Below are positions 2,601 to 43,199 of a DNA stretch of 45,022 bases, in pieces (positions within the stretch are counted from its first letter, which is position 1; each line of letters begins with the position of its first letter). The DNA is from Deltaproteobacteria bacterium. Its GTDB lineage: Bacteria > Desulfobacterota > Syntrophobacteria > Syntrophobacterales > Syntrophobacteraceae. Both the position numbers and the translations under genes were made by a program. The stretch is from NCBI GenBank assembly GCA_021777755.1, contig JAJYDE010000034.1, forward strand, positions 1 through 45,022, given 5' to 3'. The notes beneath the pieces are model-generated. The model searched no databases. It was not told the DNA's origin and worked only from the letters and a program-made list of their open reading frames with translations.

Positions 2601-2673
2601 TCCTTGCTGAGAATCCAAAAGCGAGTGTTTTCGGTAAAACGAACCTCCCCAGGAAGGGGAAAAGAGGTGCTAT

Positions 2674-4662: not shown

Positions 4663-4754
4663 GCCGACTGTTGGAGCTGTTAAGTTTGACCGTATCTTAA
4701 TTCCGGCTTGAAGCCGGTTCGCGTTGCAGGGATAAAGACAAAAGGAGTCAAGTT

Positions 4755-6974: not shown

Positions 6975-7054
6975 TCGAACGTCCGGGCGCGGTCGATACC
7001 GTCCGCGCCCGGCCTCAATATGTGAAATCGAACCTTTAGCGGGAGAAAACGCAC

Positions 7055-8404
7055 ATGGGCCTTACCGGGATTCAAATATTCAAATTGCTGCCCAAAACAA
7101 ACTGTGGTGAGTGTGGGGTTCCTACCTGCCTGGCCTTCGCGATGAACCTTGCCGCCGGCAAGGCCGAGCTTGACAAGTGTCCGTACGTATCGGCCGAGGC
7201 GAAGGAAAAGCTGGCTTCCGAATCTGCGCCTCCCATCCGTCCTCTTACGATCGGAACGGGTGAATACGCGGTTAAAGTCGGTGGCGAGACGGTTCTTTTC
7301 AGACATGAGAAGACCTTTGTCAATCCTCCGGGGCTGGCCGTTATGGTGTCAACGGCTGAGGACGCCGCTACGGTTGACGGTAAGATCGGCCGGTTCCAAA
7401 AAGCTCAGTACGACCGTGTCGGTCTCAAGCTTCGCGCCGAGATGATCGCGGTAAAAGATGCGGGCGGCGGCGCCGATGCGTTTTGCGCGCTTGCGGGGAA
7501 GGTTGCCGCAACGGGTGCGGCCATGATTTTCATCTCCGAATCCGCCGATGTTCTGACGGCCGCGGCCGACAAGTTCAAGGACAAAAAGCCGCTCCTTTAT
7601 GCGGCGACCGCGGGCAACGTCGAAGCGATGGGAAATCTTGCCAAGGCTTCCGAGTGTCCGGTGGCCGTAAAGGGTGACGGAACGATCGAGAGTGTGATCG
7701 CTCTTAGCGAAAAACTGAGCGGGATGGGCGTCAAGGACATCGTTTTGGACAGCGGAACGCGCGATCTGAAGAAGGCTTTCAGCGAGCAGATCATGATTCG
7801 CCGCTCCGCGCTAAAAGACAGGTTCCGTCCCCTGGGTTTTCCCACCATCGTTATGGCCAATGAAATGGGCGACGGGCTCATGGAAGAAGCCCTGGTGGCC
7901 GCCACTTTCATCGCCAAATACGGCGCGCTGATCGTGATGAGCGATCTGCAGCCCCACGTGCTTTTCCCGCTTCTGCTGGAAAGGCTCAACATCTATACCG
8001 ATCCTCAGCGCCCGATGACCGCCGAGCAGGGAATCTATCCGATCAACAACCCGGATGAGAATTCCCCGGTAATGGTTACCTGCAACTTCTCGCTTACCTA
8101 CTTCATCGTTTCGGGCGAAGTGGAAGGCAGCAGGGTCCCCTCGTGGTTGCTGGTGCAGGACACCGAGGGCCTTTCGGTCATGACCGCCTGGGCGGCCGGG
8201 AAGTTCTCGGGCGAAACGGTGGGCACCTTCATCAACAAGTGCGGGATAAAGGACAAGGTCAAGCACAAGAACATCATCATCCCCGGATATGCGGCGGGCA
8301 TCAGCGGCGAGTTGGAAGAAGAACTCGGGGCCGGCTGGACTGTGTCGGTTGGTCCGAGGGAGGCAAGCCAGATTCCTAAATTTCTGAAGTCCTTTAAGGC
8401 GTAG
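7055..8404 (+). CDS. acsC: CODH/ACS corrinoid iron-sulfur protein large (gamma) subunit
   Basis: A 449-residue protein that binds the cobamide and an Fe4S4 cluster and shuttles the methyl group from AcsE to AcsB. The N-terminal Fe4S4 motif is complete: Cys17, Cys20, Cys25 and Cys42 in NCGECGVPTC and DKCPYV. This cluster is needed for reductive reactivation of Co(II). A TIM barrel follows, then a C-terminal cobamide-binding part with IIIPGYAAGISGELEEEL. The ATG has GGGAG about ten bases upstream. It lies 80 bases after acsB and 16 bases before acsE and pairs with AcsD as a heterodimer. Length is normal. Confidence 0.96.
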   Translation: MGLTGIQIFKLLPKTNCGECGVPTCLAFAMNLAAGKAELDKCPYVSAEAKEKLASESAPPIRPLTIGTGEYAVKVGGETVLFRHEKTFVNPPGLAVMVSTAEDAATVDGKIGRFQKAQYDRVGLKLRAEMIAVKDAGGGADAFCALAGKVAATGAAMIFISESADVLTAAADKFKDKKPLLYAATAGNVEAMGNLAKASECPVAVKGDGTIESVIALSEKLSGMGVKDIVLDSGTRDLKKAFSEQIMIRRSALKDRFRPLGFPTIVMANEMGDGLMEEALVAATFIAKYGALIVMSDLQPHVLFPLLLERLNIYTDPQRPMTAEQGIYPINNPDENSPVMVTCNFSLTYFIVSGEVEGSRVPSWLLVQDTEGLSVMTAWAAGKFSGETVGTFINKCGIKDKVKHKNIIIPGYAAGISGELEEELGAGWTVSVGPREASQIPKFLKSFKA

Positions 8405-8420
8405 ACGGGAGGCCAAATCA

Positions 8421-9305
8421 ATGAAACTTATCGGTGAAAACCTGAACATAATGAGCAAAAAATACGGTGCGGCTCTAAAGGCCAAGGAGGCCAAGCCGCT
8501 TCAGGAACTGGCCATAGAGCAGGCCAAGGCCGGGATGGATTATGTGGACCTCAACATCGGGCCCGCCGGAAAGACCGGCGTTGAGCTGATGACCTGGCTG
8601 GTCCCCGTGATCGAAGAAGTCGTCGATATTCCTCTCGCCCTCGACACTTCCAACGTCAAAGCCATCGAAGCCGGGTTGCAGGCCTGCAAGAAACATCGGC
8701 CTCTTATCAACTCGATCATGGTTCGCCCAGAGAGAATGGAAGCTCTGCTGCCGCTGGCCGCCAAGTTCGACGCCGAGTTCGTCGGACTTCTGTGGGGACC
8801 CGAAGGCATGCCCAGGGACGAAAACGAGCGCGGCGCGCTTTGCGCCGAGCTGGTGTTCAAGGCCACGGGCGAATTTGGCGTAAAGCCCGAGCGGATCTAT
8901 ATCGATCCCATCCAGACGCCGGTTAACGTTCAGCAGATGCAGATCATGAGCGTTATAGAGTTCATGAAAATGTTGGGCGACATAGCCCCCGGGTGCAGAA
9001 GCACCGTGGGTCTTTCCAACGTCTCCAATGGTCCTCCCGATCACCTGCGTCCGATTCTGAACCAGGTAATGCTTATCATTTATAAACGGCATGGAATGTA
9101 TTCGGCCATTGTGGACTGCTACGACACCAAGCTCCATGAGATCGCCCGGGGCAAGTACCCCAACCTCGAGGCGCTTGTCAACAGAGTCGAGGACGGAGAA
9201 TCGATCGATATGGGTCCCCTGTCCGATGAAGAGCGTAGCTTCGTAAAGACCGCCAAGGTTATCTTCGGCCAGGCGCTCTATTCAGACTCGTGGCTTGAAA
9301 TCTGA
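8421..9305 (+). CDS. acsE: Methyltetrahydrofolate:corrinoid iron-sulfur protein methyltransferase
   Basis: A 294-residue pterin-binding TIM barrel of the dihydropteroate-synthase/MetH type. It moves the methyl group of methyl-tetrahydrofolate to Co(I) of the AcsCD corrinoid protein. Visible family stretches are LIGENLNIMSKKYG at the N-terminus, DYVDLNIGPAG (about 40-50), PLALDTSNVKAIEAGL, YIDPIQTPVNV and STVGLSNVSNGPP. The Asp and Asn residues in these loops contact the pterin. GGGAGG lies eight bases before the ATG. This is the last gene of the operon, closed by a strong terminator 10 bases after the stop. No metF, fhs or folD gene is adjacent, so the rest of the methyl branch is elsewhere. 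Confidence 0.95.
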   Translation: MKLIGENLNIMSKKYGAALKAKEAKPLQELAIEQAKAGMDYVDLNIGPAGKTGVELMTWLVPVIEEVVDIPLALDTSNVKAIEAGLQACKKHRPLINSIMVRPERMEALLPLAAKFDAEFVGLLWGPEGMPRDENERGALCAELVFKATGEFGVKPERIYIDPIQTPVNVQQMQIMSVIEFMKMLGDIAPGCRSTVGLSNVSNGPPDHLRPILNQVMLIIYKRHGMYSAIVDCYDTKLHEIARGKYPNLEALVNRVEDGESIDMGPLSDEERSFVKTAKVIFGQALYSDSWLEI

Positions 9306-15708: not shown

Positions 15709-17757
15709 TCAGTTCCGCGAAACGGAATCAAACAGGGTGTTGACCGTTTTCAACATAAGGGCTTCGTCGACTATGAGTGGAAGCATCAAATAAAGCGTCG
15801 GTCCAAGGGGACGAACGAGAATGCCTTTTTCAACCATATCGGAGCAGACGGCCCTTGCACGTTCGGCACCCGTACACCCCTCTTTTTCAGTCAACTCGAA
15901 TGCGCCGATCATTCCAAGGCTGCGGACGCAGGCGAGGCCCGAGATGCCCTTGAACTGTTCCAATGCCCCGGCCAGGGCCATCCCGGTGCGCTCGGCCTTC
16001 TCCACTATTTTGTCTTCCCTGTAGATATCGAGGCATTCGACGGCCACGGCGGCCGCGACGGGATTTCCGGCAAAAGTGTGGCCGTGGTAAAACGTGTTGT
16101 CGCGGGGTTGATCGCCGAAGGTTTCAAAGATCTCTTCCCTGACCACCGCCGCGCTTATGGGCAGATAGCCCCCGGAAAGCCCCTTGCCGATACAGACGAT
16201 ATCGGGATTTATGCCAGCGTGTTCGAAGGCGAACATCCTGCCGGTGCGGCCAAATCCCATGGCGATTTCATCGACGATGAGAAGAACGCGCTTTTCGCGG
16301 CACAGGTCGCCAAGTTTTCGGAAAACTTCGGCCGGATACATTTTCATGCCGGCCGCGCCCAGGCACATCGATTCGACGATGACGGCGGCAAGCTCGCCGG
16401 CGTGCCGCTCAAGAGTGGCCTCGATCGGTGCAAAGCACTCCAAGGCGCAGGCCGTGCGGGATTTCCCGGCGGGACAGTTGAAACAGTCGGGGGTTTTCAA
16501 CTTGTGGACCGGAAACAGAACCGGGCTGTAAGGAGCGTGGAAATCGGGAAGATAGCCAACCGACATCGCCCCGATGGTGTCGCCGTGATAGGCCTCTTCG
16601 AAGGCGGCAAACCGGGTTCGTCCGCGCTCGCCTCTATTGTGCCAGTATTGAAGGGCGATTCGAAGGGCCGCTTCGACGGCGCTGGCCCCGTCGCTTGCGA
16701 AAAGCGTTCTTCTGCCCTTGTCCGGGAAAAGCTCGGCCAGCCCCGAAGCAAGTTCGACGGCTCGCGGATGGGTGAGGTTGCCCAGAATGCTGTGCTGAAG
16801 CTCTCGCGCCTGGCTTGTGAGCGCCCGGATAAGTCTTGGATTTCCGTGACCCAGGTTGCATGCCCACCAGGAAGAGATGGCATCCAGGTACCGTTTGCCC
16901 TCCGAGTCGAAAAGATATGGCCCTTCGCCTTTGACGATCACGGGAAAGCCTTTTCGGGCCGCGGAGTGTTTGGTGTAAGGATGCCACAGGCTTGCCCGGT
17001 CCATCTCCCGATAGCCGGAAGGCGATTTCGGGATATCGAGCCTCCGAGCGTTGAAAAGCTCCGGGGGCAAGACCGAGCGGAGCAGGGCGGGGGGCGGACC
17101 TTGCGCGTCGAGATCGGTCATGTGGGGAATTCGCCCCAATACACGGGCCTTCGACATCCTGGAGATGGTTTGCACATTGTCCTGCTCTATTTCTCCCCAG
17201 CCCGCTTTGGTTTCACAAAAGATGATCCCGTGCGGGGCGAGTCCGGCTCGCTCCAACTCGCGCACGGATAGAAGGGTGTGATTTATCGTCCCGAGGCCTG
17301 GCCTTGCGACCAGGATCACGGGAAGACCCAGGGCGGCGATGAGATCGATCATCGTCACCGTTTGCGAAATCGGGGCCAGAAGCCCCCCGGCACCCTCCAC
17401 CACCACGCAATCATGTTTTTTCAGCAGGTTGGCGAAGGCTTCCACAATGCGATCAAGCGAGATTTCACGGTTTGAAACTTCGGCCGCCAAATGTGGTGAA
17501 CAGGCGGGATCGAAGATGTAGGGGGCCATATCCTGAAGTTCGTCGCCAGGGGGGGTGAGATCGGCCATGCGCAGGCAAAAGTCGAGATCCGGGCTGCGCC
17601 TTCCGCCTTCGGTCTTGACTCCTCCCGTCTGGACCGGTTTCATCGGGACCGCATCGAGGCCCGAGGCTCGAAGTGAGAGCAGAACCGCCGCGGCCGCAAT
17701 GGTTTTGCCCGCGTCGGTGTCCGTGCCAGTAATGAAAAACCCCCTCGTAGCGTTCAT
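15709..17757 (-). CDS. bioDA: Fused dethiobiotin synthetase / DAPA aminotransferase (BioD-BioA)
   Basis: A 682-residue fusion covering two consecutive biotin steps. Residues 1 to about 225 are BioD: P-loop TGTDTDAGKT (10-19), MKPVQTGG and VEGAGGLLAPI. Residues about 245-682 are BioA, a PLP aminotransferase that makes diaminopelargonate from KAPA: LWHPYTKH, SSWWACNLGHG, SDGASAVEAAL, the Schiff-base Lys525 in IGKGLSGGY, and FYHGHTFAGNP. An insert with four cysteines (CFNC and CALEC, residues about 420-440) is found in some bacterial BioA variants and may bind metal. The start chosen is the ATG at 17757, with GAGG eight bases upstream and two bases after the bioC stop; an ATG at 17763 is too close to that site. 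Last gene of the bio operon. Confidence 0.95.
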   Translation of the reverse strand: MNATRGFFITGTDTDAGKTIAAAAVLLSLRASGLDAVPMKPVQTGGVKTEGGRRSPDLDFCLRMADLTPPGDELQDMAPYIFDPACSPHLAAEVSNREISLDRIVEAFANLLKKHDCVVVEGAGGLLAPISQTVTMIDLIAALGLPVILVARPGLGTINHTLLSVRELERAGLAPHGIIFCETKAGWGEIEQDNVQTISRMSKARVLGRIPHMTDLDAQGPPPALLRSVLPPELFNARRLDIPKSPSGYREMDRASLWHPYTKHSAARKGFPVIVKGEGPYLFDSEGKRYLDAISSWWACNLGHGNPRLIRALTSQARELQHSILGNLTHPRAVELASGLAELFPDKGRRTLFASDGASAVEAALRIALQYWHNRGERGRTRFAAFEEAYHGDTIGAMSVGYLPDFHAPYSPVLFPVHKLKTPDCFNCPAGKSRTACALECFAPIEATLERHAGELAAVIVESMCLGAAGMKMYPAEVFRKLGDLCREKRVLLIVDEIAMGFGRTGRMFAFEHAGINPDIVCIGKGLSGGYLPISAAVVREEIFETFGDQPRDNTFYHGHTFAGNPVAAAVAVECLDIYREDKIVEKAERTGMALAGALEQFKGISGLACVRSLGMIGAFELTEKEGCTGAERARAVCSDMVEKGILVRPLGPTLYLMLPLIVDEALMLKTVNTLFDSVSRN

Positions 17758-17759
17758 GA

Positions 17760-18551
17760 TCATTTCCTCGCTGTAACGTAAAGAACTCGCCAGGTCACCG
17801 TCACTCCCCCTTGGGGAGCGCAAAACTGCCGGTCGTAGTAGTCGATGAGTTCATGAAGTTCGGTTCTGTTAAGAAGGGCGCAACGGGTATCGGACCTTCC
17901 GGTAACCCCTTGCCTGTTGAGGCTGCGCAGCAATTCGCGCGTTGAACCGCAGGTTTTTTGGAGCGTCTCGCACCGGGATTTCACGACATCCAGTCCGGCC
18001 GCTTCGACTGCTTTCAGGATTTCTCCTTCCGCGGGCAGGAGCACCGGCAGAGCTTTTTGAGGAAAAAGGCGCGTTCGCGCGGCGAAAAGCTCCCCGAGGG
18101 TCCCTTGGACCATCAGGGCCGCGGCCACGCTGCCGCAAGGTTCGAGCAGCGCCGCGATCCGTTTCATGATCACATCCGCGGGAGTGATCCAGTGGAGAGC
18201 CGAACTGCTGGCGATAAGCGAAAATTGCCTTCCAGGGCAAAACGTTCGCGCATCGGCCGTGTGCCAGCAAATATTTGCACTCTCTGCGATGCGCTTTCTT
18301 GCCGAATCTATCATGGGAGCCGATATGTCCAGGGCGTCAATGGTAGCCGGCGGGAAGCGTTTTGCCAGAATTTCTGTAAAATAGCCGGTTCCGCATCCGA
18401 TTTCGAGGACGCTTCCGATGGTCTCGGAAAGTGGCAGGAAAGCGGAGAGATTTTCGGCTACCGACATCTGCACGCCGGACTCCAGGTCATAGGTCCGGGC
18501 GGCGGCGGCAAAGCGAGCCGAAATCGAGGTGGCGGCCAAAGAGTTTTTCAC
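17760..18551 (-). CDS. bioC: Malonyl-ACP O-methyltransferase
   Basis: A 263-residue S-adenosylmethionine-dependent methyltransferase that caps malonyl-ACP to open the pimelate branch of biotin synthesis. The N-terminus (ARFAAAARTYD, then VQMSVAENL) is the typical BioC lead; the SAM motif I is VLEIGCGTGYFTEIL, followed by DALDISAPMIDSARKR and SLIASSSALHWI. The start is the GTG at 18551, inside the GTGA overlap with the bioH stop and with GGAGG just upstream. The frame is open far upstream (to 19103), but there it runs through bioH in another frame and has no family similarity. The C-terminal part is conserved enough (QGTLGELFAA) to place it as BioC and not a generic methyltransferase. Confidence 0.93.
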   Translation of the reverse strand: MKNSLAATSISARFAAAARTYDLESGVQMSVAENLSAFLPLSETIGSVLEIGCGTGYFTEILAKRFPPATIDALDISAPMIDSARKRIAESANICWHTADARTFCPGRQFSLIASSSALHWITPADVIMKRIAALLEPCGSVAAALMVQGTLGELFAARTRLFPQKALPVLLPAEGEILKAVEAAGLDVVKSRCETLQKTCGSTRELLRSLNRQGVTGRSDTRCALLNRTELHELIDYYDRQFCAPQGGVTVTWRVLYVTARK

Positions 18552-31404: not shown

Positions 31405-32616
31405 TTAAACCTGCTCGAGCGCCTTTGCGGGACTCGTTGATTTGAGTCTGCCGAATACAAGCAGCAGCATCAAATTAATAAAAATAAATCCACCGCAAAG
31501 ACTGAAAAGGAAGGCAAAAGAGCGGCCGCCGGCAATCAGGCGCCCCCCGAGCCACGGGCTCAAGAAAAACCCCGCGTCCATGGCGAAAAGGGCCAGGTTG
31601 ACGTTTACTCCCCGAAGTTCGGGCCTGGATACGTCGAAGAGCAGCGCGTTAAGCAGGGGCATGATAAAACCGATGCAAAGCCCGTAGTAGCAGGCCATGA
31701 GATAGAGCATGGAATTGCCGCTCGTGTGTCCAAGGAGCAGGAAGCACGGGACCAGCAAAAACATGGCCGACTCGATCAGCCGGGTCTTGTCGAACCGGTC
31801 GAAAAACAGTCCCCCGGCCAGCCGCAAAGCGATCATGACAAGGGTTGCGATCGTGAAAAACCAGCCCACTTCGGTAATCGAGTTCGCCGTCGCGTATCCC
31901 TTCATAAAGTAAAAGACCGTGGCGTAGCAGATATAGACGAAGAGGTTCACGCCCAGTAAAATGCAAATCCGGGGGTCTTTGAGATTGTTTCGGATTTCAT
32001 CCATTTGCGGGCGCCTGACAAGGACGCCTTCCACTTTGCCAAGCGCGGTTTTCAGCCTCTTTTGCAGCACCACCAGCAAAACCAGGGCGGGAATCGCCAG
32101 AATTGTTACCGCGCGATAGATCGTGGCTTCATTTTGGACGTATCCCTTCAGCCATTCGGTGGCCAGAGGCATGAGCGCATAGGGGACGAGCACCGAAACG
32201 GATATGAACCCGAAGCCTTGTCCGCTTTTTCCCTTGGGAATGAAATGGACCACCAGGGCCATGGCCGCGGAAACGAGCAACACGAAGGCGGCCCCGTGGA
32301 TGATCCGAAGCACGATGAGTCCCTCCACGCTCACCACCCGGCCGTAGGAGCAAAGAACGATCATGATTGCGCAAAGAGCCGCGATCATGGCCCCGACGGC
32401 GTTTTTGGCGTGAAGCAGTGGCACCGCGCCAAGGCGCAGAACAAAAGCGCTCATCGGCTCAAGCCCGACCAGAAAGCCCCTCCAGTGGGCCGCAATGCCG
32501 ATCCTTGCCAGATAGTCGAAAAAACTGTAGAACACCGCCATATTGCAAAACGAAAAGAATATCACGAGGTTCAGCAGTATGAATTCAATGGAAAAGAGCT
32601 TATCGCGCCCGTCCAT
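31405..32616 (-). CDS. Major facilitator superfamily transporter
   Basis: A 403-residue integral membrane protein with about twelve hydrophobic helices, for example FILLNLVIFFSFCNMAVFYS, GLIVLRIIHGAAFVLLVSAA and AFLFSLCGGFIFINLMLLL. The cytoplasmic loop in the middle (KRLKTALGKVEGVLVRRPQ) separates the two six-helix halves. Substrate is unknown. The start is the ATG at 32616, with GAGGAG upstream, and overlaps the aminotransferase stop by one base (TGATG). It is the last gene of a three-gene operon, so it probably moves the substrate or product of the aminotransferase-like enzyme. Confidence 0.9.
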   Translation of the reverse strand: MDGRDKLFSIEFILLNLVIFFSFCNMAVFYSFFDYLARIGIAAHWRGFLVGLEPMSAFVLRLGAVPLLHAKNAVGAMIAALCAIMIVLCSYGRVVSVEGLIVLRIIHGAAFVLLVSAAMALVVHFIPKGKSGQGFGFISVSVLVPYALMPLATEWLKGYVQNEATIYRAVTILAIPALVLLVVLQKRLKTALGKVEGVLVRRPQMDEIRNNLKDPRICILLGVNLFVYICYATVFYFMKGYATANSITEVGWFFTIATLVMIALRLAGGLFFDRFDKTRLIESAMFLLVPCFLLLGHTSGNSMLYLMACYYGLCIGFIMPLLNALLFDVSRPELRGVNVNLALFAMDAGFFLSPWLGGRLIAGGRSFAFLFSLCGGFIFINLMLLLVFGRLKSTSPAKALEQV

Positions 32617-33779
32617 CAAACGCTCCTCAACTGACACAGGGTTTTCGAAAGGGCCTGAAAATCCCTGCCTTCCCGCTGGATTTTCGACCAGGCATCAACG
32701 AAGGCTTCCAGGGCTTCCATGTGTGATACGGTAATCCTTATCCAGTTGGGGAAGCGAAAGCCGGTCATTGCGCGCACCATAACGCCGCGGGTCATCAGCT
32801 TTCTGTAGGCAAGACTGTCGCTTATCGGCAGCCGAACCATCACGAAATTGCCTTCCCCGTTGACGAAGGGAAGCCCCATCAGGTCGAGTTCCTTTAGCAG
32901 AAACCGCTTGCCCGTCTTGACGACCTCGCGCGTGCGCGCCACATGCCCGGTGTCGTCGAGGGCCGTGAGGGCCGCCGCCTGGGCCATGGTGTTTACCGAG
33001 TAGACGACGCAGGTGCGCCGGATGATATCGACGACCTCATTGCCCGCGGCCAGATAGCCGATGCGAAGTCCCGCAAGACCGTACATTTTGGAAAAGGTCC
33101 TGAAGACCACCAGGTTTGGATAGTCGGCGATTAATTTCATGGAATCGGGGAACTCGGGGTCTTCGACAAATTCCCGGTAGGCCTCATCGACCACCACGAT
33201 GCACCGGCCCTCTATCCGGTCGAGAAATGAGCGCAGGGCCGCCTGGTCCCACCAGGACCCGGTGGGATTGTTGGGGTTGCAGATAAAGACGATCCTGGTG
33301 CGCTCGTCGATTCTTTCGAGCATCCCGTCGGCGTCGAAGCCGTAGTTCACAAGGGGAATCAGTCGCGCCTCGAAGCCTGAGAAGCGCGCCACCCATTCGT
33401 AGACCGCGAAGGTCTTGTCCGCGGTGATGATATTGTCGCCCTGCTGGCAGAAAGCCTTGATGACAAAGGCGATGACCTCGTTTGCACCGTTTCCCGCAAG
33501 GAACTGGTCGGGGTGCATTCCGAAAATATCGGCCAGTTTGCTCCTTAGGTGGTAACAATCCCCGCTGGGATATAGAGAGGCACGGGCGGGCTCGAAGGCC
33601 TCAAGCACCCTGCGGGCCGTCTCCGGGGGGCCGAGCGGGTTTTCGTTATTGTTGAGTCGATAGAGCCTGGAGCAGCCGTAGAGTTTTTTCAGCTCGTCAT
33701 CGGGCTTGCTGGGGATGTAGGCTTCAAAATTCTTTATATAATCGGGAACGAGCCTTTCGAGCCCGGAGAAAGACTTCAC
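32616..33779 (-). CDS. HisC-like PLP-dependent aminotransferase
   Basis: A 387-residue fold-type I aminotransferase, closest to histidinol-phosphate aminotransferases: LNNNENPLGPP, YPSGDCYHLR, GNGANEVIAF, FICNPNNPTGS, VVDEAYREFV, the Schiff-base Lys in TFSKMYGLAGLRIGY, and the Arg in RFPNWIRITV. No other his gene is near. It is coupled to a regulator-like protein and a transporter, so it may act on another amino acid or phosphonate-like substrate rather than in histidine synthesis. The start is a GTG at 33779, overlapping the upstream stop as GTGA. Length is slightly above the family average. The exact substrate is open. Confidence 0.9.
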   Translation of the reverse strand: MKSFSGLERLVPDYIKNFEAYIPSKPDDELKKLYGCSRLYRLNNNENPLGPPETARRVLEAFEPARASLYPSGDCYHLRSKLADIFGMHPDQFLAGNGANEVIAFVIKAFCQQGDNIITADKTFAVYEWVARFSGFEARLIPLVNYGFDADGMLERIDERTRIVFICNPNNPTGSWWDQAALRSFLDRIEGRCIVVVDEAYREFVEDPEFPDSMKLIADYPNLVVFRTFSKMYGLAGLRIGYLAAGNEVVDIIRRTCVVYSVNTMAQAAALTALDDTGHVARTREVVKTGKRFLLKELDLMGLPFVNGEGNFVMVRLPISDSLAYRKLMTRGVMVRAMTGFRFPNWIRITVSHMEALEAFVDAWSKIQREGRDFQALSKTLCQLRSV

Positions 33780-35095
33780 TGTCTTTCCCCCCCGTACTGG
33801 AACATGACCACATCGCCTTTTCCCGCATAAGGAAGCACAATGCGCGGCTCGAAGCCCGCTTCGAGAAGTCCGGGGATGAAGATGCTCTGCCAGGCCTGGC
33901 CGAGGTCTACGGCGAAATGAATGTTGGCGATGTTTTCGTTTTTCATAAGCGTCAAATGGCGGGCGATGTTATCGGCCGCATCCGCGCCCGGCCACATGGG
34001 GCGAAGCGTTACACGCCCCCTGGGGCGATCGAATTCCGCGCAAAGAACCGAGTGGGGCGCCACTGTTTCCCCGGAGGGCTGGTCCACCCGGATCTCTCTT
34101 GGAAGAACAAGCTTTGCATATTGGCGGCAGATAAAGGCCTCCAGTTCCGGATAGACCCATACGGTCACGCCCATGTCCTCGGCAAGCATTCGGAACCAGG
34201 CCTCGATGAGCGTCGAAGACCCGTGCGGACCATGGGAGTCGAAAGTCCCCAGAAGTTCGAACTGATCCGCCGGAAACCCCGGAGGCGGACCGATGTTCAT
34301 AATCCCTACGGCGCCGCTTCTTGCAACCGCGCTGATGCAGCCTTCCAGAAGGTTTTCCGACATGGCGCACGATTCCGGCTGGTTGAAGATATAGGGGCCG
34401 AAGCATTCGACCATCTTTTCCCCCAGCCTGCGCCAGAAAATCGCACCGCCGATTTCCCCGGCCGCTCCCACCGCGGCCAGACACTCATATTCCCCCGCGG
34501 TCATCATGTCCGAGAGTTTGCCCGGATGCAGCAGGATATCCGAGAGTGCGCTCCTGTCATAGTAGGACATGGCCAGCCGGGAGATGAACTTGAGTTCTGC
34601 CGGCGATGGAGACCTCAGAGCCGTTTTTGAAAGCGTGCTCGCGGCAACGGGTTCAAGCGGGGGCAGCGGCGGATAGGCCTTTTCCTTTATGAGCGTTAGC
34701 CGCAACTGCCCGCCCTTTTCGCGCTCCAACACGAAACGGTCAACCGATCGGGACGCTATCACCAGCCCCATCGATTCGAGTTCGGCCTCATCGTCGAGCG
34801 ATATGGAGGCTGTCACGTTAAAGGCCTTCAAATCGAATGCATCGCAGGGAAGTGAAAAAACCACCCGTGCGAAGTAGCCCCCATTCGAGCAGGCGATCTC
34901 CAGAGGGCCGCCAGGGCGAGTGGCTTTGCGGCACAGGTGCATGAAGACTTCTTCGGCCGCAAGGGTCAGCATGAGTGCTTCCCCCTCTGCCAGTCCGAAG
35001 CAGGAGGCGGCCTTTTCCACAAAAGCGGTCACAACCGGCAGGAAAATTTCGTCGGCTTCGAAAGACAAAAGAAGATTCGCACTTTTTCGGTTCAT
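33776..35095 (-). CDS. Degenerate anti-sigma-type ATPase fused to GNAT-like domains
   Basis: A 439-residue protein. Residues about 8-140 resemble the RsbW/SpoIIAB HATPase: LTLAAEEVFMHLCRKA is the N-box region and ESMGLVIASRSVDRFVLERE the last helix and strands. The N-box Asn is replaced and the D-x-G-x-G box is not visible, so ATP binding is doubtful. Residues about 165-439 look like a tandem GNAT-type fold (AVGAAGEIGGAIFWRRLG, IANIHFAVDLGQAW, then GFEPRIVLP and GDVVMFQYG). Similar HATPase/GNAT fusions occur in deltaproteobacteria, with no known function to my knowledge. The ATG at 35095 has GAGGG six bases upstream. First gene of an operon with the aminotransferase and MFS transporter, joined by GTGA and TGATG overlaps. 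Confidence 0.75.
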   Translation of the reverse strand: MNRKSANLLLSFEADEIFLPVVTAFVEKAASCFGLAEGEALMLTLAAEEVFMHLCRKATRPGGPLEIACSNGGYFARVVFSLPCDAFDLKAFNVTASISLDDEAELESMGLVIASRSVDRFVLEREKGGQLRLTLIKEKAYPPLPPLEPVAASTLSKTALRSPSPAELKFISRLAMSYYDRSALSDILLHPGKLSDMMTAGEYECLAAVGAAGEIGGAIFWRRLGEKMVECFGPYIFNQPESCAMSENLLEGCISAVARSGAVGIMNIGPPPGFPADQFELLGTFDSHGPHGSSTLIEAWFRMLAEDMGVTVWVYPELEAFICRQYAKLVLPREIRVDQPSGETVAPHSVLCAEFDRPRGRVTLRPMWPGADAADNIARHLTLMKNENIANIHFAVDLGQAWQSIFIPGLLEAGFEPRIVLPYAGKGDVVMFQYGGERQ

Positions 35096-35214
35096 TTCAA
35101 ACCCTCGGGTCACAAAAAGAAGCGGAAAACAATCAGCGAAGACCGCGGAGCAACAAGAACCTGGTCCCGAAGCTTTTCATCGATTTCGTTGCGAGCCAAC
35201 CTGAAAGGCCTCGG

Positions 35215-38200
35215 TCAGAAAACTTCCGCGTCCTCTTGCTCCGTAACGGGCGCAAACCCGCGCCTCAGCGTGTTTTCAACGACATTGCGGCAAACCATGA
35301 AGTGCAAAAGATAATCGGGACCGCCCGCCTTGGTCCCGAGCCCCGACATCTTGAAACCGCCAAAGGGATGGCGACCGACAATCGCCCCGGTGCACCCCCG
35401 GTTTATGTAGAGATTACCGGTCCTGAAATCTTGACAGCCCTTCGCGATATTGGCCGGGCTTCTGGAAAAAAGCCCTCCGGTCAAGGCGTACCTTGTCCCG
35501 TTGGCCACCCCAAGCGCCTCCTCGAAATCCCGCACCTTGATGACGGCAAGCACGGGCCCGAAAATCTCCTCCTGCGCCAGAGGATCTTGTGGGCGAACGT
35601 CTCTAAAGATGCAAAGGGGTGCGAACCAGCCATCCTCCAAGGGGATTTGACGCTCCCAGACAGGGTATCCGGCCTCCTTGCCCATTTCAATATATCTTGA
35701 GATCTTCTCGCGCGCCGCCCGGTCTATCACCGCGCCCATGAAGTTTTCAGGACATTCCACCGGGCCAACGCCAAGGCTTTCCGCCGCCGCTTCCAGCCTT
35801 TCCAGGAACCGGTCGTAAACCTTTTCGCCAACTATCAGCCGGGAACAGGCGGAACACTTCTGCCCCTGGTAGCCGAATGCCGAGCGTAAGACATGGACCA
35901 CGGCTTCATCCAAATCGGCGTCCGAATCGATGATAATGGCGTTTTTGCCTCCCATTTCAACGACGACATTTTTTATACTCGTCGATTCGGCCCTCACCTG
36001 GCTGGCTCTTGAAATAATTCGAACCCCCACTTCCATGCTGCCCGTAAAGGCCACCAGGGCCACATCCGGATGTTCTGTGAGCAGGTCCCCGATCACCCCG
36101 CCCGCACCGGGAAGAAAATTGAACACCCCCGGCGGAAGCCCCGCTTCCTCGTAGATGCTGTTTAGCATATAACCGTTTACCGCTGAAAGCGACGCGGGCT
36201 TATATACAACCGTATTGCCCGCCACGATCGCCGCCGAACTCATCCCCGCCGATATGGCCAGGGGGAAATTCCATGGCGCTATAACAGCCACAACGCCCCG
36301 GGGTTCATAGAGCAACCGGCTGGTCTCACCCGGCGTGTGGGCGATTTCCCTCGGCCTGCCGTACCGCAGCATTTCCCGCCCGTAGTATTCGAAGTAATCG
36401 ATTGCCTCGCACACCTCGGCGTCCGATTCGCTCCACGCCTTGCCAACCTCCAGGACCTGCAGAGCCGCCAGTTCAAATCTTTTGCGCCGCGCACAGGCCG
36501 CAGCCTGGAACAGGTATTCGGCCCTCTTTTCGGCCGGGATGCCGCGCCAAAAGCCGAAAGCGGCTTTTGCCGCCGCAATCGCCGAATCGGCTTCCGCCGT
36601 TTCAGCCGAAGAAATAATCCCGACGGTCTCGGTGTTACGATTTGGATTGACAGTCTCGAAAGAAGTTCGGGTGCGAATTATCTTGCCCCCTATCTGCGGG
36701 GGTACTTTTATCGGAAGGCTTTGCCGCACTTTCTTAAGCTCGTCGTAAAACCGCTCGCGATTGTCGCGCAAAGACCAGTCCAAAACCGGCTCGTTTGTGA
36801 AAGGGTCGTAAGGGGCGCCCTTGCGGGCTGCGCCTGGTCTTGCCCGCCCATTGTGCGCGGCAAGCTTTTCCAAGGGGTTTTTGAGCAGTTCCGCCCTGGC
36901 CAGCCCCTCGGAAAATGTCTGCCTCAGAAACGATTCGTTGGCGGTATTTTCGAGCAGCCTTCTTACCAGATACGACATCCCCTGGAGCATCTCGCCCACC
37001 GGGCAATAGACGCGCACATGCAACCCGGCCTTCCTCAGGGCGTTTCGAACCGGCCTGCCCATGCCGTAGAGCACCTGAAATTCGACGTGCTCCGCTTCCA
37101 GCTCCTTTGCCGCTTCGGCAACCGCCGAAATCGACCTGATATTGTGGGATGCGCACCCAAGCTTGACGCGGTGTCCGCTTTCCAAAACGATTCTCGCAAG
37201 CCGCTCGAAATTGGCGTCAGTTTCCGCCTTGTCGGTAAATACCGGCACCGGCCAGTTGTTTTGCTTGGCGCCGATCACCTCCTGGTCCCAGTAAGCCCCT
37301 TTTACCAGCCGGACGGTAAAGCGGAAATCGCCCGACTCCGCCCACCTTATCATCTCCCGAAGATCGGCTTCGCTCTCCCGCAGATAAGCCTGGATAACAA
37401 TGCCCGTGTGAGGATAGCGGCGGAATTGCTCCTCTTCCATGAGGCTTCGATACAGGCACAGCGTCAGATCCTTTATCCCGCGATGTTCCATGTCAAAATG
37501 AACGAAGGCCTCGGCTTCCATGGCTCTGCGCAAAATGGGGCGCAAACGCTCCTTGGCCTTTTCGATGCAGTGGTTGAAGGCGCAACTGCTCATCTGGGAG
37601 TACATGGCCGAGATTTTGAGCGAAACGTTGATTCTCGGGCTGTGGCACCAGTCCCTGGAGCAGGCGACCGGCACCGGGGAGGCTAAATCTTTGGAACCAG
37701 GGCCAAGGGGACCCAGTCTTTCCCGCGCGCCGTCCAGAAAATCGAATAACTCCAGATACCTATGCAGGTATTCATCGGCCTCCCGCTCGGACACCACCGC
37801 CTCGCCCAGAAGATCGATGGAGAAGGCAAAACCCGAAGAGCGAAGCTCCATAAGAGTTGCAAGGGCATCTTTGGCCGAGATCCCGGCAATAAACTGGGTG
37901 GCCACTTTCCGTATGTTTCTGCCGATGGCCCTGGCAACTATCCGTGAAGTCATCCAGGAGGGCGCCACATATTTGATCCCCCAGTTGAGAGCCGAGGGGA
38001 AATTGAGTCCGGGGTCCGAAAAATACTGCTGAAGATGGCCTATGATCTCATTTGTGTCCTTGAGGCAGGGGAAAACGTCGATGAAGCGAAACATCTGGAG
38101 CTTGAAGGCTTCGTTTCTCATGCACCAGTCGAAAAGCTTGCCCGCCCAGTAATCCTTGCCCAAAATGGAACCGTCTTCGCTTCCCATCAAATCGTAGAGG

Positions 38201-38241
38201 CGATAACCCGTCTGGCGAATCCTGCCTTCGATCTCAGGCAT
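35215..38241 (-). CDS. putA: Bifunctional proline dehydrogenase / pyrroline-5-carboxylate dehydrogenase
   Basis: A 1008-residue enzyme that oxidises proline to glutamate. The FAD-dependent proline dehydrogenase barrel covers about 90-470 (NVSLKISAMYSQM, RLVKGAYWDQE, EFQVLYGMG and the QGMSYLVRRLLENTANESF tail). The NAD-dependent aldehyde dehydrogenase part covers about 530-990: VIAPWNFPLAISAGM, FTGSMEVG, the Glu in VVEMGGKNAI, the catalytic Cys in YQGQKCSACSR, and EEIFGPVLAV. There is no N-terminal ribbon-helix-helix, so it does not repress its own gene like E. coli PutA. No extra C-terminal domain. It overlaps the KptA-like gene by eight bases and is transcribed with it. Proline could serve as carbon source or osmolyte. 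Confidence 0.96.
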   Translation of the reverse strand: MPEIEGRIRQTGYRLYDLMGSEDGSILGKDYWAGKLFDWCMRNEAFKLQMFRFIDVFPCLKDTNEIIGHLQQYFSDPGLNFPSALNWGIKYVAPSWMTSRIVARAIGRNIRKVATQFIAGISAKDALATLMELRSSGFAFSIDLLGEAVVSEREADEYLHRYLELFDFLDGARERLGPLGPGSKDLASPVPVACSRDWCHSPRINVSLKISAMYSQMSSCAFNHCIEKAKERLRPILRRAMEAEAFVHFDMEHRGIKDLTLCLYRSLMEEEQFRRYPHTGIVIQAYLRESEADLREMIRWAESGDFRFTVRLVKGAYWDQEVIGAKQNNWPVPVFTDKAETDANFERLARIVLESGHRVKLGCASHNIRSISAVAEAAKELEAEHVEFQVLYGMGRPVRNALRKAGLHVRVYCPVGEMLQGMSYLVRRLLENTANESFLRQTFSEGLARAELLKNPLEKLAAHNGRARPGAARKGAPYDPFTNEPVLDWSLRDNRERFYDELKKVRQSLPIKVPPQIGGKIIRTRTSFETVNPNRNTETVGIISSAETAEADSAIAAAKAAFGFWRGIPAEKRAEYLFQAAACARRKRFELAALQVLEVGKAWSESDAEVCEAIDYFEYYGREMLRYGRPREIAHTPGETSRLLYEPRGVVAVIAPWNFPLAISAGMSSAAIVAGNTVVYKPASLSAVNGYMLNSIYEEAGLPPGVFNFLPGAGGVIGDLLTEHPDVALVAFTGSMEVGVRIISRASQVRAESTSIKNVVVEMGGKNAIIIDSDADLDEAVVHVLRSAFGYQGQKCSACSRLIVGEKVYDRFLERLEAAAESLGVGPVECPENFMGAVIDRAAREKISRYIEMGKEAGYPVWERQIPLEDGWFAPLCIFRDVRPQDPLAQEEIFGPVLAVIKVRDFEEALGVANGTRYALTGGLFSRSPANIAKGCQDFRTGNLYINRGCTGAIVGRHPFGGFKMSGLGTKAGGPDYLLHFMVCRNVVENTLRRGFAPVTEQEDAEVF

Positions 38242-39143: not shown

Positions 39144-39815
39144 CTACTTATTGGCCGAACAACTCTGGGAGGTTCCTCCGTTTGATCCGGCGCAAGCCCA
39201 ATTCCACGGTCCGCCGCCTGTAACCCTGGAAGCCTTGCCGCTGACGCACAGGTTTGTTTTGGGAGCCTTGGTAAGAGTCTGTCCGTTTGCCGACCCGCAT
39301 ACGCCGTTTACCTCCAGGTTGGCTGAACAGCGTGCCTTCATTCCCCCGTTTAATCCCGCGCAGCTCCACTTCCATGGACCTTTGCCCGTGACGGCCGAAG
39401 CGCTGCCGGCACTGCAAAGCAGGCTGGAACCGGGTTGGGTGAAGAAATTGCCCTTGTTGGCCGAACCGCAGCTGCCGTTTACCTTGAGTTTTGCCGTGCA
39501 ACTTGCGCTGGTTCCCCCGTTTGCCCCCGCGCAAGTCCAGTTCCATGGCCCGGTCCCGCTGAGAACGGAGGCCGTACCGGATTTACACAGGTTGGATGTG
39601 GGGGTTGAGAGAAAACTCTTCCCGTTCGAGGTGCCACAAAAGCCGTTTACCTGCAGGCTTGCCGAACAGTTAACCGTGACCCCACCCTTTGATCCCGCGC
39701 AGCTCCAGCTCCAGGGGCCTTTGCCTGAAAGCCTGGAGGCCTTGCCGGCGCTGCACAGCAAGGTCGTCTTGGGGACCTTCAGGAAACTCTGTCCGTTCGC
39801 CGAGCCGCACAATCC
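39144..39815 (-). repeat. Four tandem cysteine-rich repeats at the 3' end of the lipase gene
   Basis: Four units of 53-57 residues encode a pattern that begins CG-S-A-N-G, then P-x-x-x-LC, SGKGPWxWxCAGxxGG and C-x-A. Each unit has four cysteines, which would form two disulfides outside the cell. The units differ from each other, so the duplication is not recent. Similar repeats occur in surface proteins of other deltaproteobacteria, in my memory; their ligand is not known. Confidence 0.85.
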
Positions 39816-42800
39816 GCTGCCGGCGGGCGCAAAATTGGCATTTACGCTCATGTCTTGCCCCATCGTTACGGTGCATACGTTATTTGAGACCTGGGTACAG
39901 CCGCTCCAGCCCTCGAAGACGCCGCCCGAGGTCGCTTGTTCGGTCAACTGGACCGAAGAGCCTATGGTGAAAGGTGCGCTGCACGTGCTCCCGCAGTCTA
40001 TCCCCGTTGGCGTCGAGGAAACATCTCCACTGCCTTGTCCGGATTTGGTCACACTGAGAGTGAAGTTCGGATTTTTAACCGTGATCTGGTTTCCGGTACC
40101 CGCGACACTGCTGGCCGACCCGCCGGGCGTCGTCACGATGACGGTACGACCACCAGGGGTATCCGAGGCATCGACATTGAGAGTTGTCGTCAATGTTTGT
40201 CCCGCGGCGTCAACCTGGAGTGCCCCGGTTGTCATGAGGCTGTCCTGCTGACTTCCGTTCATGAAGACGATCCCGGTTGCGCCCCCAAGGTAAAGCCCCT
40301 GGATGGTGAGCGTCGCCCCGGTTGCCCCGGGTGCCACCGTTGCGGGACTTACTGCAAGCACCTGGGGCGTTTGAAGCGATACCTGCCCGACAATCTGGGT
40401 GTTGACCGACCCGTTGCTGACATGGAGCAGCGTATTTCCGGCCGACTGCGCCGTGGCGAGTCCGGTGTTGCTCACATTGACTATGGTGGAGTCGTCGGCT
40501 GAATAGTAGGTGTTCATGGCCGCGGCAGTAACGTCGCGCTGGACACCGTCGGAATAGCTGCCCATCACCTGGAGCTGCTGCGTCTGGCCGATGCTCGAAA
40601 ATACAACGGGCGAAGGAGAAACCGTGATCGACTGCAACGTCGCGGTGGTCTGCACCGTGGCCGTGCCGTTTGTCATGGACACATTGCCCGCGTTGTCACG
40701 AGCAACCGCGCTGAAGGTCAAAGTCCCCACGAAATTGTTGGCAATGGTGAACGTGGCGGTAAAAGGCGCCTGCTGAACCAGCACGGAATTGCCCGACCCA
40801 TCGCTGATTGTGAACAGCACGGCCTGCACATTGGCGCCGCTGACGGGAGTCGCGGTGATGGTGACTTGATCGCCGGAGTTGAAAGTGGAGTTGGCCGCGG
40901 GCGAGGTTATGGTGATCAACGGTGTGCTCGAAAGAGCGCGGAAATTGCTGCATTTTCCCTGTTCAAGACCGGCCGCGTGTCCGGCGCCCACCGGGGTGAT
41001 TGCCGGAAAACCGGCGGCAAAGGCGCTGACTGGTCCGCTCAGTAAAGTCGTCGCTTCCGTGCCCATGGCTGAAGAACCGGGCTCCTGAGTGTGAAAGACA
41101 CCCTCGAAAAGTTGGGTGTACTGGCTGCTCAAACCGCCGGCCTGGCTTGGCCCGGTTACAATCCCGTCGTTTGCCTGATTGTTCATGATCGAATTTATGA
41201 AAGCCACCGCCGAGGAAGTATCCACACCGACCGGCTGGTATCCCATAAAAACACATACCTGGTAGATGAAGTTGATGAGGGTTGTCGATGTAATGTTCGT
41301 TGGATCGATATCGCCTATGAGCGCAAAGCTTGAAGCGTTTGTCGCTCCCATGTTCAGCAGGGCCGTGCTGCCCTGCTGCAGATCCTCAACCGCCCCCTGG
41401 TCTATGGGATAGCCGACGGAACTGGCCAGATAATCCACCACGGGACCACCTTCGGGCAGATTGTGCAGCCCCCACAACAAGTTCGCCCACGGGCTTCCAT
41501 AATGCGGAGTGCCCAGGGTCACGAAACGGTGGATCAGACCCATGCCGAACGTATTGCTCATATAGGCGGGCTGCCGGGCCACCATGGTCCGGGTTATGTC
41601 TCCGCCCATGCTGTGGCACACGATGTCCGCCCGGGCCACGGCGGTCTGGGCGTTTCGCAGTGTCGAAAGGACCTGAACGATGTAGTTGGTCAACAGTTGC
41701 GCGTTGGTGCCGAAATGAGAGGCGTTGGTGTAAGAATAGTCGAAGGTATAAACATGAAAGCCTGCCGTGGTCAGCATCCCCATGGCGCCAGCCGCCGACC
41801 AGGTGTCGCCGCTGCTCCACAGTCCGTGCACCAGGATTACGGGCGGGCGCTGCAACTGAAGTGTCTGGGATTCGAGCGTATCGGGCTGACCGCCGCTGGG
41901 CGTAAAGCTTCCGCCGAAAGAGATGTCGTGGGTGGTCTCATTGACAAGGCCTTCGGGGACGGTATAAATCGCATCGGCATAATAGTTATTGCCAACCTGC
42001 TGGACGGTCATGTTGGTGAGATCGTTTCCGAAACCGGGCGCGGGAACGAAGGTCCCGGAGGGTGTCTGACTCGATACTCCGTTGTTCAAGGCGAGCGAAA
42101 CCACTCCCGGTCCACCGACCTGGCAACGCACGCGCACCTCCGTGGCCCCGTCGGCGGCGGCTGAAGACACGGTCGAGCCATACCTTGCGGGATTTTCGTC
42201 GAGCAAGGTGATACCTTCGTTTCTGAAATGGAAAACATAACGACCGGCTACTCCGCCGCTGTCCAGGCTGCCCGCCACCAAAGAGTCCGGGCCGCCGTCG
42301 AGCATCGCTCCGCTTATGCCCGAGCCGGCCAGTTCGAGCCACCCGTTGGCAGTGGTGGTCCCATCCGTATAACCGGCGCGCACCGGAGTCCCGCCGAACC
42401 CGTCCTGGCCTCCGCTCGCATCGCCCGTTTCCCAAAGGATCGTATTGTAATTGAACTCCGTGTCAAAATCGCCAGGCCCGATATCCGACCGGTCGATAAG
42501 AACCATCTGGAAACTGTTGAGCTTATCGACGTGTTGGTTATAGTAGCCCACGTTGATCCAGTTGACGCCGAAGGCGTTGTGGCCGTCGACCGTGTCGTTG
42601 CCGTAGGTCACCACATTGGAGCCGGTGCCGCGTGTGTCCACATCGGCAAAAAACGGGGCTATCATCGGAATGGTGGAAGAAGCCAGGCTGAAGGGAGTGT
42701 AGGTGGAAAGACCGTAATTGAAAGTGACGTTGCCGTTATTGTTTACGTAAAGATTCTGCCAGGTCTGCCCGGCGAAGTTTATCCCGAATCCTATGGGAAC

Positions 42801-43064
42801 CAAGCCTGTATAGCCGTCGTCGTTTGCAGGCAAAGTGTTTGTGTTGAATCCCGCATTGGTTCTGATGGCCGCGCCGGTGGACGCCGGCGCCGCGACTCGA
42901 TTGCGAACCCCGGGGTGCAGCAAGGGTTTGCCAGGGGGCTTCGCCTGGACTGTTGCGAACTGCATGGCAACAAAACACATGCACAGAGTCAGCATGTACA
43001 ATAGCCGCGAAGATCTCGGTCGGGAAAGCCGGGTCGTAGCCATACGAACTCGTTCGCTCAGCAT
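39144..43064 (-). CDS. Secreted multidomain lipase/esterase with NIDO and adhesion-type domains
   Basis: A 1306-residue exported protein. A signal peptide covers about 1-41 (LLYMLTLCMCFVAM core, cut near VQA). Then: a NIDO domain (about 80-285, IAPFFADVDTRGTG), a link region, an alpha/beta hydrolase (about 405-720) with PPVILVHGLWSSGDTW and the nucleophile Ser485 in VCHSMGGD, an Ig-like segment (PLITITSPAANSTF), a Big_2-like segment (SITVSPSPVVFSS), an IPT/TIG-like segment (LAVSPATVAPGATGATLTI), a segment ending FEGWSGC and NANFA, and four cysteine repeats. The start is the ATG at 43064 with AGGAG eight bases upstream. It is a single-gene unit with its own promoter and terminator. It probably attacks lipids or esters while bound to a surface or polymer. 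No sorting signal was recognised. Confidence 0.9.
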   Translation of the reverse strand: MLSERVRMATTRLSRPRSSRLLYMLTLCMCFVAMQFATVQAKPPGKPLLHPGVRNRVAAPASTGAAIRTNAGFNTNTLPANDDGYTGLVPIGFGINFAGQTWQNLYVNNNGNVTFNYGLSTYTPFSLASSTIPMIAPFFADVDTRGTGSNVVTYGNDTVDGHNAFGVNWINVGYYNQHVDKLNSFQMVLIDRSDIGPGDFDTEFNYNTILWETGDASGGQDGFGGTPVRAGYTDGTTTANGWLELAGSGISGAMLDGGPDSLVAGSLDSGGVAGRYVFHFRNEGITLLDENPARYGSTVSSAAADGATEVRVRCQVGGPGVVSLALNNGVSSQTPSGTFVPAPGFGNDLTNMTVQQVGNNYYADAIYTVPEGLVNETTHDISFGGSFTPSGGQPDTLESQTLQLQRPPVILVHGLWSSGDTWSAAGAMGMLTTAGFHVYTFDYSYTNASHFGTNAQLLTNYIVQVLSTLRNAQTAVARADIVCHSMGGDITRTMVARQPAYMSNTFGMGLIHRFVTLGTPHYGSPWANLLWGLHNLPEGGPVVDYLASSVGYPIDQGAVEDLQQGSTALLNMGATNASSFALIGDIDPTNITSTTLINFIYQVCVFMGYQPVGVDTSSAVAFINSIMNNQANDGIVTGPSQAGGLSSQYTQLFEGVFHTQEPGSSAMGTEATTLLSGPVSAFAAGFPAITPVGAGHAAGLEQGKCSNFRALSSTPLITITSPAANSTFNSGDQVTITATPVSGANVQAVLFTISDGSGNSVLVQQAPFTATFTIANNFVGTLTFSAVARDNAGNVSMTNGTATVQTTATLQSITVSPSPVVFSSIGQTQQLQVMGSYSDGVQRDVTAAAMNTYYSADDSTIVNVSNTGLATAQSAGNTLLHVSNGSVNTQIVGQVSLQTPQVLAVSPATVAPGATGATLTIQGLYLGGATGIVFMNGSQQDSLMTTGALQVDAAGQTLTTTLNVDASDTPGGRTVIVTTPGGSASSVAGTGNQITVKNPNFTLSVTKSGQGSGDVSSTPTGIDCGSTCSAPFTIGSSVQLTEQATSGGVFEGWSGCTQVSNNVCTVTMGQDMSVNANFAPAGSGLCGSANGQSFLKVPKTTLLCSAGKASRLSGKGPWSWSCAGSKGGVTVNCSASLQVNGFCGTSNGKSFLSTPTSNLCKSGTASVLSGTGPWNWTCAGANGGTSASCTAKLKVNGSCGSANKGNFFTQPGSSLLCSAGSASAVTGKGPWKWSCAGLNGGMKARCSANLEVNGVCGSANGQTLTKAPKTNLCVSGKASRVTGGGPWNWACAGSNGGTSQSCSANK

Positions 43065-43199
43065 AAGCTCATCTCCTGTTCGAAATTTGCACTGGTGAGG
43101 ATGGATAAGTGTACATTCACTTTCGCTGAATACTTTGGTCTTCTCAAACCTGAATAAATGCGGGAACATGCCAGGTCCGAGCCCAATCGAGGCCGTTGC

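Follow-up and report, generated by a model that had tools for sequence, protein, structure and literature searches.

What is the role of an RsbW-like protein that has lost its kinase motifs, is joined to two GNAT-like halves and is encoded directly ahead of an aminotransferase? This question is raised by the window (the whole stretch of DNA that was analysed; 45,022 nt from a Deltaproteobacteria bacterium of the Syntrophobacteraceae, GCA_021777755.1, contig JAJYDE010000034.1, positions 1-45,022), in which the gene for this protein, here termed HG, is followed by an aminotransferase gene (AT) and a transporter gene. The features under discussion are these:

33776..35095, minus strand: HG, 439 aa, a pseudo-RsbW domain, a degenerate GNAT domain and a second GNAT-like domain; stop TGA at 33776-33778
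34670..35086, minus strand: RsbW/HATPase_c_2-fold domain (HG residues 4-142), which retains Glu49 and has neither the N-box Asn nor the G1 Asp
34937..34951, minus strand: degenerate N-box E49-V-F-M-H53 of HG, from the alignment
34163..34630, minus strand: GNAT-fold domain without the acetyl-CoA P-loop, HG residues 156-311, from the fold match and the alignment
33779..34162, minus strand: second GNAT-like half (HG residues 312-439), related by homology to the C-terminal half of c4, a free tandem GNAT protein
32616..33779, minus strand: AT, a HisC-like PLP aminotransferase, 387 aa; it begins with a GTG that shares bases with the stop of HG (GTGA)
31405..32616, minus strand: MFS transporter; its ATG overlaps the AT stop (TGATG), with an in-frame GTG upstream at 32637

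HG starts with the ATG at 35095, and an in-frame GTG is also present upstream at 35113. The open reading frames, their strand, their ends and both overlaps are as an earlier sequence-only reading of this DNA had described them, with minus-strand bases 33779-33776 reading GTGA between HG and AT and bases 32618-32614 reading TGATG between AT and the MFS gene.

Sequence models say little about HG. Pfam gave a single match, HATPase_c_2 below its gathering score (20.6 vs 27.4 bits, E 5e-4), and this model matches 28 of 71 HG members at E 0.01 or less; the NCBIfam models gave no match in HG, and a search of solved structures by HG sequence returned nothing significant (best E 0.028). The AlphaFold2 model, built from the 71-sequence alignment, has a pLDDT of 88.4 and a pTM of 0.85. 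By structure comparison of this model, residues 6-140 match RsbW (6m37_C, Z 16.1, rmsd 1.8 over 113 residues), with SpoIIAB (Z about 16) and chains of RsbV/RsbW complexes also among the top fold matches, and residues 157-311 match the GNAT protein 1yvo_B (Z 15.4, rmsd 2.7 over 149 residues). In addition, residues 149-432 align with c4 (E 5.9e-6, probability 85, 17% identity). The fold matches to RsbW and GNAT, together with the c4 homology, indicate an RsbW-GNAT-GNAT-like layout, in which the second GNAT-like half is assigned by homology to c4 and not by fold. The RsbW-like domain and the tandem GNAT-like part that had been proposed from the letters are thus both present, the first GNAT half by fold and the second by homology.

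To define what HG has lost, we aligned 71 sequences (the window and 70 of the 79 loci described below) and compared them with 15 intact RsbW sequences, namely 14 of the 17 RsbW ORFs of HG loci and one domain from locus L016. A profile-profile alignment relates HG to the intact RsbW genes of the same loci at E 3e-13. The N-box Asn, present in 15/15 of the comparison set, corresponds to HG residue 53, which is Y in 51 sequences, H in 19 and S in one, and never N. This count is biased because one of the two scan patterns used to collect the loci contained [HY] at that position; residue 53 is likewise never N in 13 sequences obtained without either pattern (the window and 12 others), several of which are contigs that recur among the 71. 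At residue 82, the position of the G1 Asp, D occurs in 0/71 HG sequences and in 14/15 of the comparison set, and residue 84 of the D-x-G box is G in only 4/71. HG therefore resembles the RsbW/SpoIIAB kinases (HATPase_c_2, PF13581) in its fold, in its HATPase_c_2 match and in the retained N-box Glu, but differs from them in the absence of both the Asn and the G1 Asp from all 71 sequences, in falling below the Pfam gathering score and in its fusion to a GNAT-like part. These counts agree with the proposal that the domain is without the N-box Asn and the D-x-G box, and they rule out that its HATPase residues are intact in a proper alignment.

The GNAT part is altered in a comparable way. The acetyl-CoA P-loop motif of GNAT acetyltransferases is Q/R-x-x-G-x-G/A. 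HG shares the GNAT fold at residues 157-311, but the motif is absent, and residues 238-248 are variable and partly gapped in the 71-sequence alignment. The label of pseudo-ATPase/acetyltransferase given to HG by the sequence-only reading is not supported, because the acetyl-CoA loop has been lost as well. Thirteen residues are nevertheless invariant across all 71 HG sequences despite the loss of the catalytic motifs, which argues that HG is maintained; judged from its alignment, it is a putative pseudoenzyme under conservation and not a decaying protein. A three-domain ORF at L016 has the same RsbW-GNAT-GNAT-like layout, with a HATPase_c_2 match followed by a weak Acetyltransf_1 match. Its N-box Asn is kept, and its P-loop region, like that of c4, is more intact by eye, so that in sequence it looks like an intact counterpart of HG.

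The partner of HG is most evident from its gene neighbourhoods. The best 80 of 83 HG relatives in named genome contigs, collected with two sequence patterns, represent 79 distinct loci. AT lies downstream of HG in 72/79 loci, is fused to it in 3/79 and is missing in 4/79; the pair is present in 75/79, including the three fusions and one pair separated by two genes. As ORFs, the downstream ATs adjoin or overlap HG except in L102 (an 81-base gap) and L096 (two genes between). HG and AT form one natural ORF in L073, L082 and L089. No AT was seen at four loci: the flanks are full at L074 and L090, 2 kb of sequence follows HG at L083, and L066 reaches a contig end. Two side observations belong here: WY2.bin112 carries a fused HG-AT gene (L089) as well as an unfused pair (L107), and the genes between HG and AT in L096 (2500-4717) are of the ThiF family and the Condensation-domain type, which may hint at conjugation chemistry.

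The same pairing is seen in 97 whole genomes (the window's own and 96 relatives), whose contigs, judging by their lengths, include those of 10 of the 79 loci. HG was found in 14/97 genomes from six families, after G069, with a single RsbW domain (E 7e-4), was left out of an initial 15. With matches limited to E 1e-80 or better, every HG genome (14/14) and none of the others (0/83) holds an AT homologue of 61-100% identity; the next best of the matches listed at that threshold has 41%. The Fisher p of 4e-17 for this co-occurrence is uncorrected for phylogeny and overstates independence, because nine of the 14 HG genomes belong to the window's own family and seven of these to its own genus. With AT following or fused to HG in 75/79 loci and present in 14/14 HG genomes, the possibility that the genes rarely co-occur is ruled out.

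We favour HG as a non-catalytic partner of AT, combining a pseudo-kinase with a pseudo-GNAT in a conserved anaerobe pathway and most likely regulatory or scaffolding in function, and give this reading a probability of about 0.5. It is favoured by the near-exclusive pairing, the fusions and the loss of catalytic residues alongside retained invariant ones. At the level of sequence, the motif loss, the conservation, the pairing, the fusions and the recurrent neighbours can be regarded as established, and the steps that follow are conditional. HG and AT would form a physical complex. AlphaFold2 modelling of the natural fusion of L082, with AT as a monomer, gave no confident HG-AT interface, given a pTM of 0.62 (0.85 for HG alone) and a low-confidence linker (pLDDT 34-39).

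The losses in HG may also be compatible with a new catalytic activity. HG would then be an active enzyme with a rebuilt site, its RsbW pocket, its GNAT cleft or both binding another ligand and modifying the substrate or product of AT. The invariant polar residues, which lie in both parts of the protein (N93, R302, E306, D307, R333, D372, D397 and D428), speak for such a site, as do E49 of the N-box and R116, each kept in 70/71 sequences. However, the N-box Asn, the G1 Asp and the acetyl-CoA loop are all lost, the segment where the P-loop would lie varies in sequence and is gapped in part, and a more intact-looking GNAT, c4, is already present at 44/79 loci. We therefore consider an active HG doubtful.

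If HG is instead a non-catalytic partner of AT, the neighbours of the pair should be considered next. Neighbour labels derive from single-linkage clusters and from HMM matches of representatives only, and are counted both for the full set of 79 loci and for the 22 that have 8 kb or more on each side (full flanks):

XdhL, xanthine-dehydrogenase-type Mo-hydroxylase: 45/79 loci; 18/22 with full flanks
MFS, on any strand: 50/79 loci; 18/22 with full flanks
c4, free tandem GNAT (three of the loci counted carry L016-type ORFs, and some cluster members are fragments): 44/79 loci; 17/22 with full flanks
STAS: 17/79 loci; 7/22 with full flanks
RsbW: 17/79 loci; 6/22 with full flanks
SpoIIE: 11/79 loci; 5/22 with full flanks
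MocA-like: 10/79 loci; 4/22 with full flanks
XdhC: 9/79 loci; 4/22 with full flanks
Adenosine deaminase: 4/79 loci; 2/22 with full flanks

The tight coupling of three genes that had been proposed holds well for HG and AT, and in part for the transporter, with an MFS-type gene on HG's strand in 46/79 loci. A core of three genes is too narrow, since XdhLSM and c4 are also recurrent and partner-switch genes are found in a minority; the P-loop loss had likewise been missed. XdhL at 50% identity or more was found in 12/14 HG genomes, the exceptions being G007 and G090, and in 1/83 others (among matches at E 1e-110 or better; the next best has 39% identity). The single genome with XdhL and no HG, G059, is 79% complete and of the same genus as the HG genome G095. 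At E 1e-10, c4 was found in 13/14 HG genomes, the exception being G066, and in 3/83 others, or 2/83 in the Fisher test, which leaves out G012 (30% identity, a 528-aa frame). Arg108 of c4 is invariant in the 33 c4 sequences aligned. The distance matrix of HG correlates with those of AT (r 0.73, 69 loci), XdhL (0.65), MFS (0.63) and c4 (0.40). Shared ancestry confounds these correlations, as it does the co-occurrence. In the window's own genome, XdhLSM lies on a separate contig, C85, and c4, RsbW, STAS, SpoIIE and an NMT1-type binding protein lie on C62/C73, where c4 is cut by contig ends.

XdhL resembles the large subunit of xanthine and nicotinate dehydrogenases (L/S/M subunits) in its MoCoBD domains, in its nearest solved relative, nicotinate dehydrogenase 3hrd, and in its best NCBIfam model, pucD (588.6 vs a cut-off of 783.65). 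It differs from them in that the one representative compared, from L032, reaches none of the cut-offs of the 13 NCBIfam models compared, including the XDH equivalogs. XdhL does not define a substrate: its closest solved structure is that of a nicotinate dehydrogenase, and it passes no XDH cut-off. At L046, L078, L097 and L100 an adenosine deaminase gene is present and no XdhL was seen in the flanking DNA examined, which gives full flanks at L078 and L100. The two enzymes may substitute for one another on a purine-like ring, a hint drawn from counts that are too small.

Transporters vary among the five loci labelled Firmicutes (L069, L077, L087, L092 and L108). A MATE pump lies beside the cluster in L092 and L108 (by HMM) and in L087 (by similarity), where no MFS label was assigned; L069 has an MFS_3-type gene (by HMM), and L077 ends early. 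MATE and MFS-type families have export roles, and on these family roles the MATE and MFS_3 genes incline us towards export. In the favoured reading of HG as a non-catalytic partner of AT, the HG-AT pair would form the core of a pathway that usually also includes a Mo-hydroxylase of the xanthine/nicotinate-dehydrogenase type, the GNAT enzyme c4 and an efflux-type transporter. A single small molecule, which may be a nitrogen heterocycle, would be the target of AT, the hydroxylase and c4, and the product would be exported.

The RsbW fold of HG also raises the question of partner-switch control. Any of STAS, RsbW and SpoIIE was seen in 23/79 loci, and none in 56/79 within the flanking DNA examined; in the window's own genome these genes lie beside c4, on a contig other than that of HG. 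The STAS and RsbW proteins have kept what we take to be their functional motifs, with SSAGLR in 17/17 STAS ORFs and the N-box Asn and G1 Asp in all 14 RsbW ORFs aligned. In L072 and L081, HG read from its first possible start overlaps a STAS ORF, and in L098, L104 and L105 a STAS ORF comes after AT. The RsbW-like face of HG might bind the STAS protein of the locus, and the RsbW kinase and SpoIIE phosphatase might set the activity of AT rather than that of a sigma factor. A precedent is SiaABCD of Pseudomonas aeruginosa, a signalling network in which SiaC binds and activates the enzyme SiaD (PMC8457831). The SpoIIE phosphatase of the loci has as its top NCBIfam match prot_phos_SiaA of SiaABCD, far under the cut-off (63.4 vs 700 bits). 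The output SiaD is a diguanylate cyclase, whereas the HG loci hold an aminotransferase and a pseudo-RsbW-GNAT protein; for the HG loci, a link between switch and enzyme is hypothetical. The idea that a dead RsbW-GNAT protein reads STAS phosphorylation and gates an AT/Mo-hydroxylase pathway, with its product exported by syntrophs and sulfate reducers, is attractive because the RsbW fold is kept, STAS abuts HG or AT, and SiaC/SiaD offers a precedent. We nonetheless hold it to be unlikely, because only 23/79 loci show any such gene.

The same genes permit a different role, in which HG would serve as a STAS sponge or pseudo-anti-sigma factor, its RsbW fold titrating the STAS antagonist, and AT would be a mere co-transcribed passenger or a regulon target. 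The RsbV/RsbW complex chains among the best fold matches fit this role, as do L072, L098, L104 and L105, where STAS adjoins the HG-AT pair and no RsbW-cluster ORF is labelled in the flanks examined. Yet AT co-occurs with HG far more strictly than STAS does (75 vs 17 of 79 loci), and three fusions link HG to AT, which makes a sponge distinctly improbable.

AT itself belongs to the HisC-like aminotransferases, as had been proposed, scoring 301.5 bits against NCBIfam hisC (TIGR01141), above the cut-off of 276.55. It shares the fold family, and Lys231, Asp198 and Arg348, which we take to be its catalytic residues, are each kept in at least 98.5% of the rows of a 71-row AT alignment. It differs from HisC in forming a conserved group of its own (identity of at least 61%, against at most 41% for other homologues) and in the presence of a better-scoring HisC elsewhere in the genome. 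In the window's genome this further HisC, at C86:19027-20094, scores 352.9 vs 301.5 bits and lies beside ORFs that look cmk-like and rpsA-like, which rules out AT as the genome's sole HisC. That AT is an ordinary second HisC with HG as an inert hitchhiker is very unlikely even though AT passes the hisC cut-off, given that conservation is far higher for AT than for HG (a median of 68% identity against 37%, 38 loci), that 9/10 HG genomes tested (not G066) hold an additional, better-scoring HisC above the cut-off, and that the occurrence of HG and AT coincides exactly across the 97 genomes and the two are fused in three loci.

Other genes of the window lie apart from the HG-AT pair. A gene at 35215-38241, which we take to be PutA-like, was considered as a member of the system and rejected; its cluster is limited to L031 and L032 of the 79 loci, close relatives, so it is probably a local neighbour. 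On the minus strand, the translation of 39144-43169 gives a putative secreted protein of 1341 aa that looks lipase-like and carries, in its C-terminal part, four repeats that contain Cys and are built around GPWxWxCxGxxGG. Judging from translations, the gene run at 1656-9305 (plus strand) resembles a CODH/acetyl-CoA synthase cluster, and the single ORF at 15709-17823 (minus strand), which has bioF-like and bioB-like ORFs close by, resembles a fusion of BioD and BioA.

The overall interpretation of the sequence-only reading, an undescribed pathway or sensor, is supported in part: the conserved pair and the frequent MFS-type gene stand, as does the absence of a published description from what we searched, and a pathway or sensor is a candidate role; the acetyltransferase label and the limitation of the core to three genes do not stand. 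No description of the HG-AT system was found in the open-access literature searched. The parts are known folds; their combination, and its conservation, appears to be new. The pair is easily overlooked, because the models tested name AT as HisC and give HG no family. The system occurs in bacteria labelled Deltaproteobacteria and Firmicutes, for example Pelotomaculum and Desulfosporosinus, and HG-carrying records not labelled as MAGs include Syntrophomonas wolfei subsp. methylbutyratica and Desulfocarbo indianensis. The HG-AT locus represents an apparently undescribed gene system common to distantly related bacteria. It provides a concrete enzyme set for tracing a putative metabolite, and it may exemplify how pseudoenzymes connect metabolism to a signalling switch.
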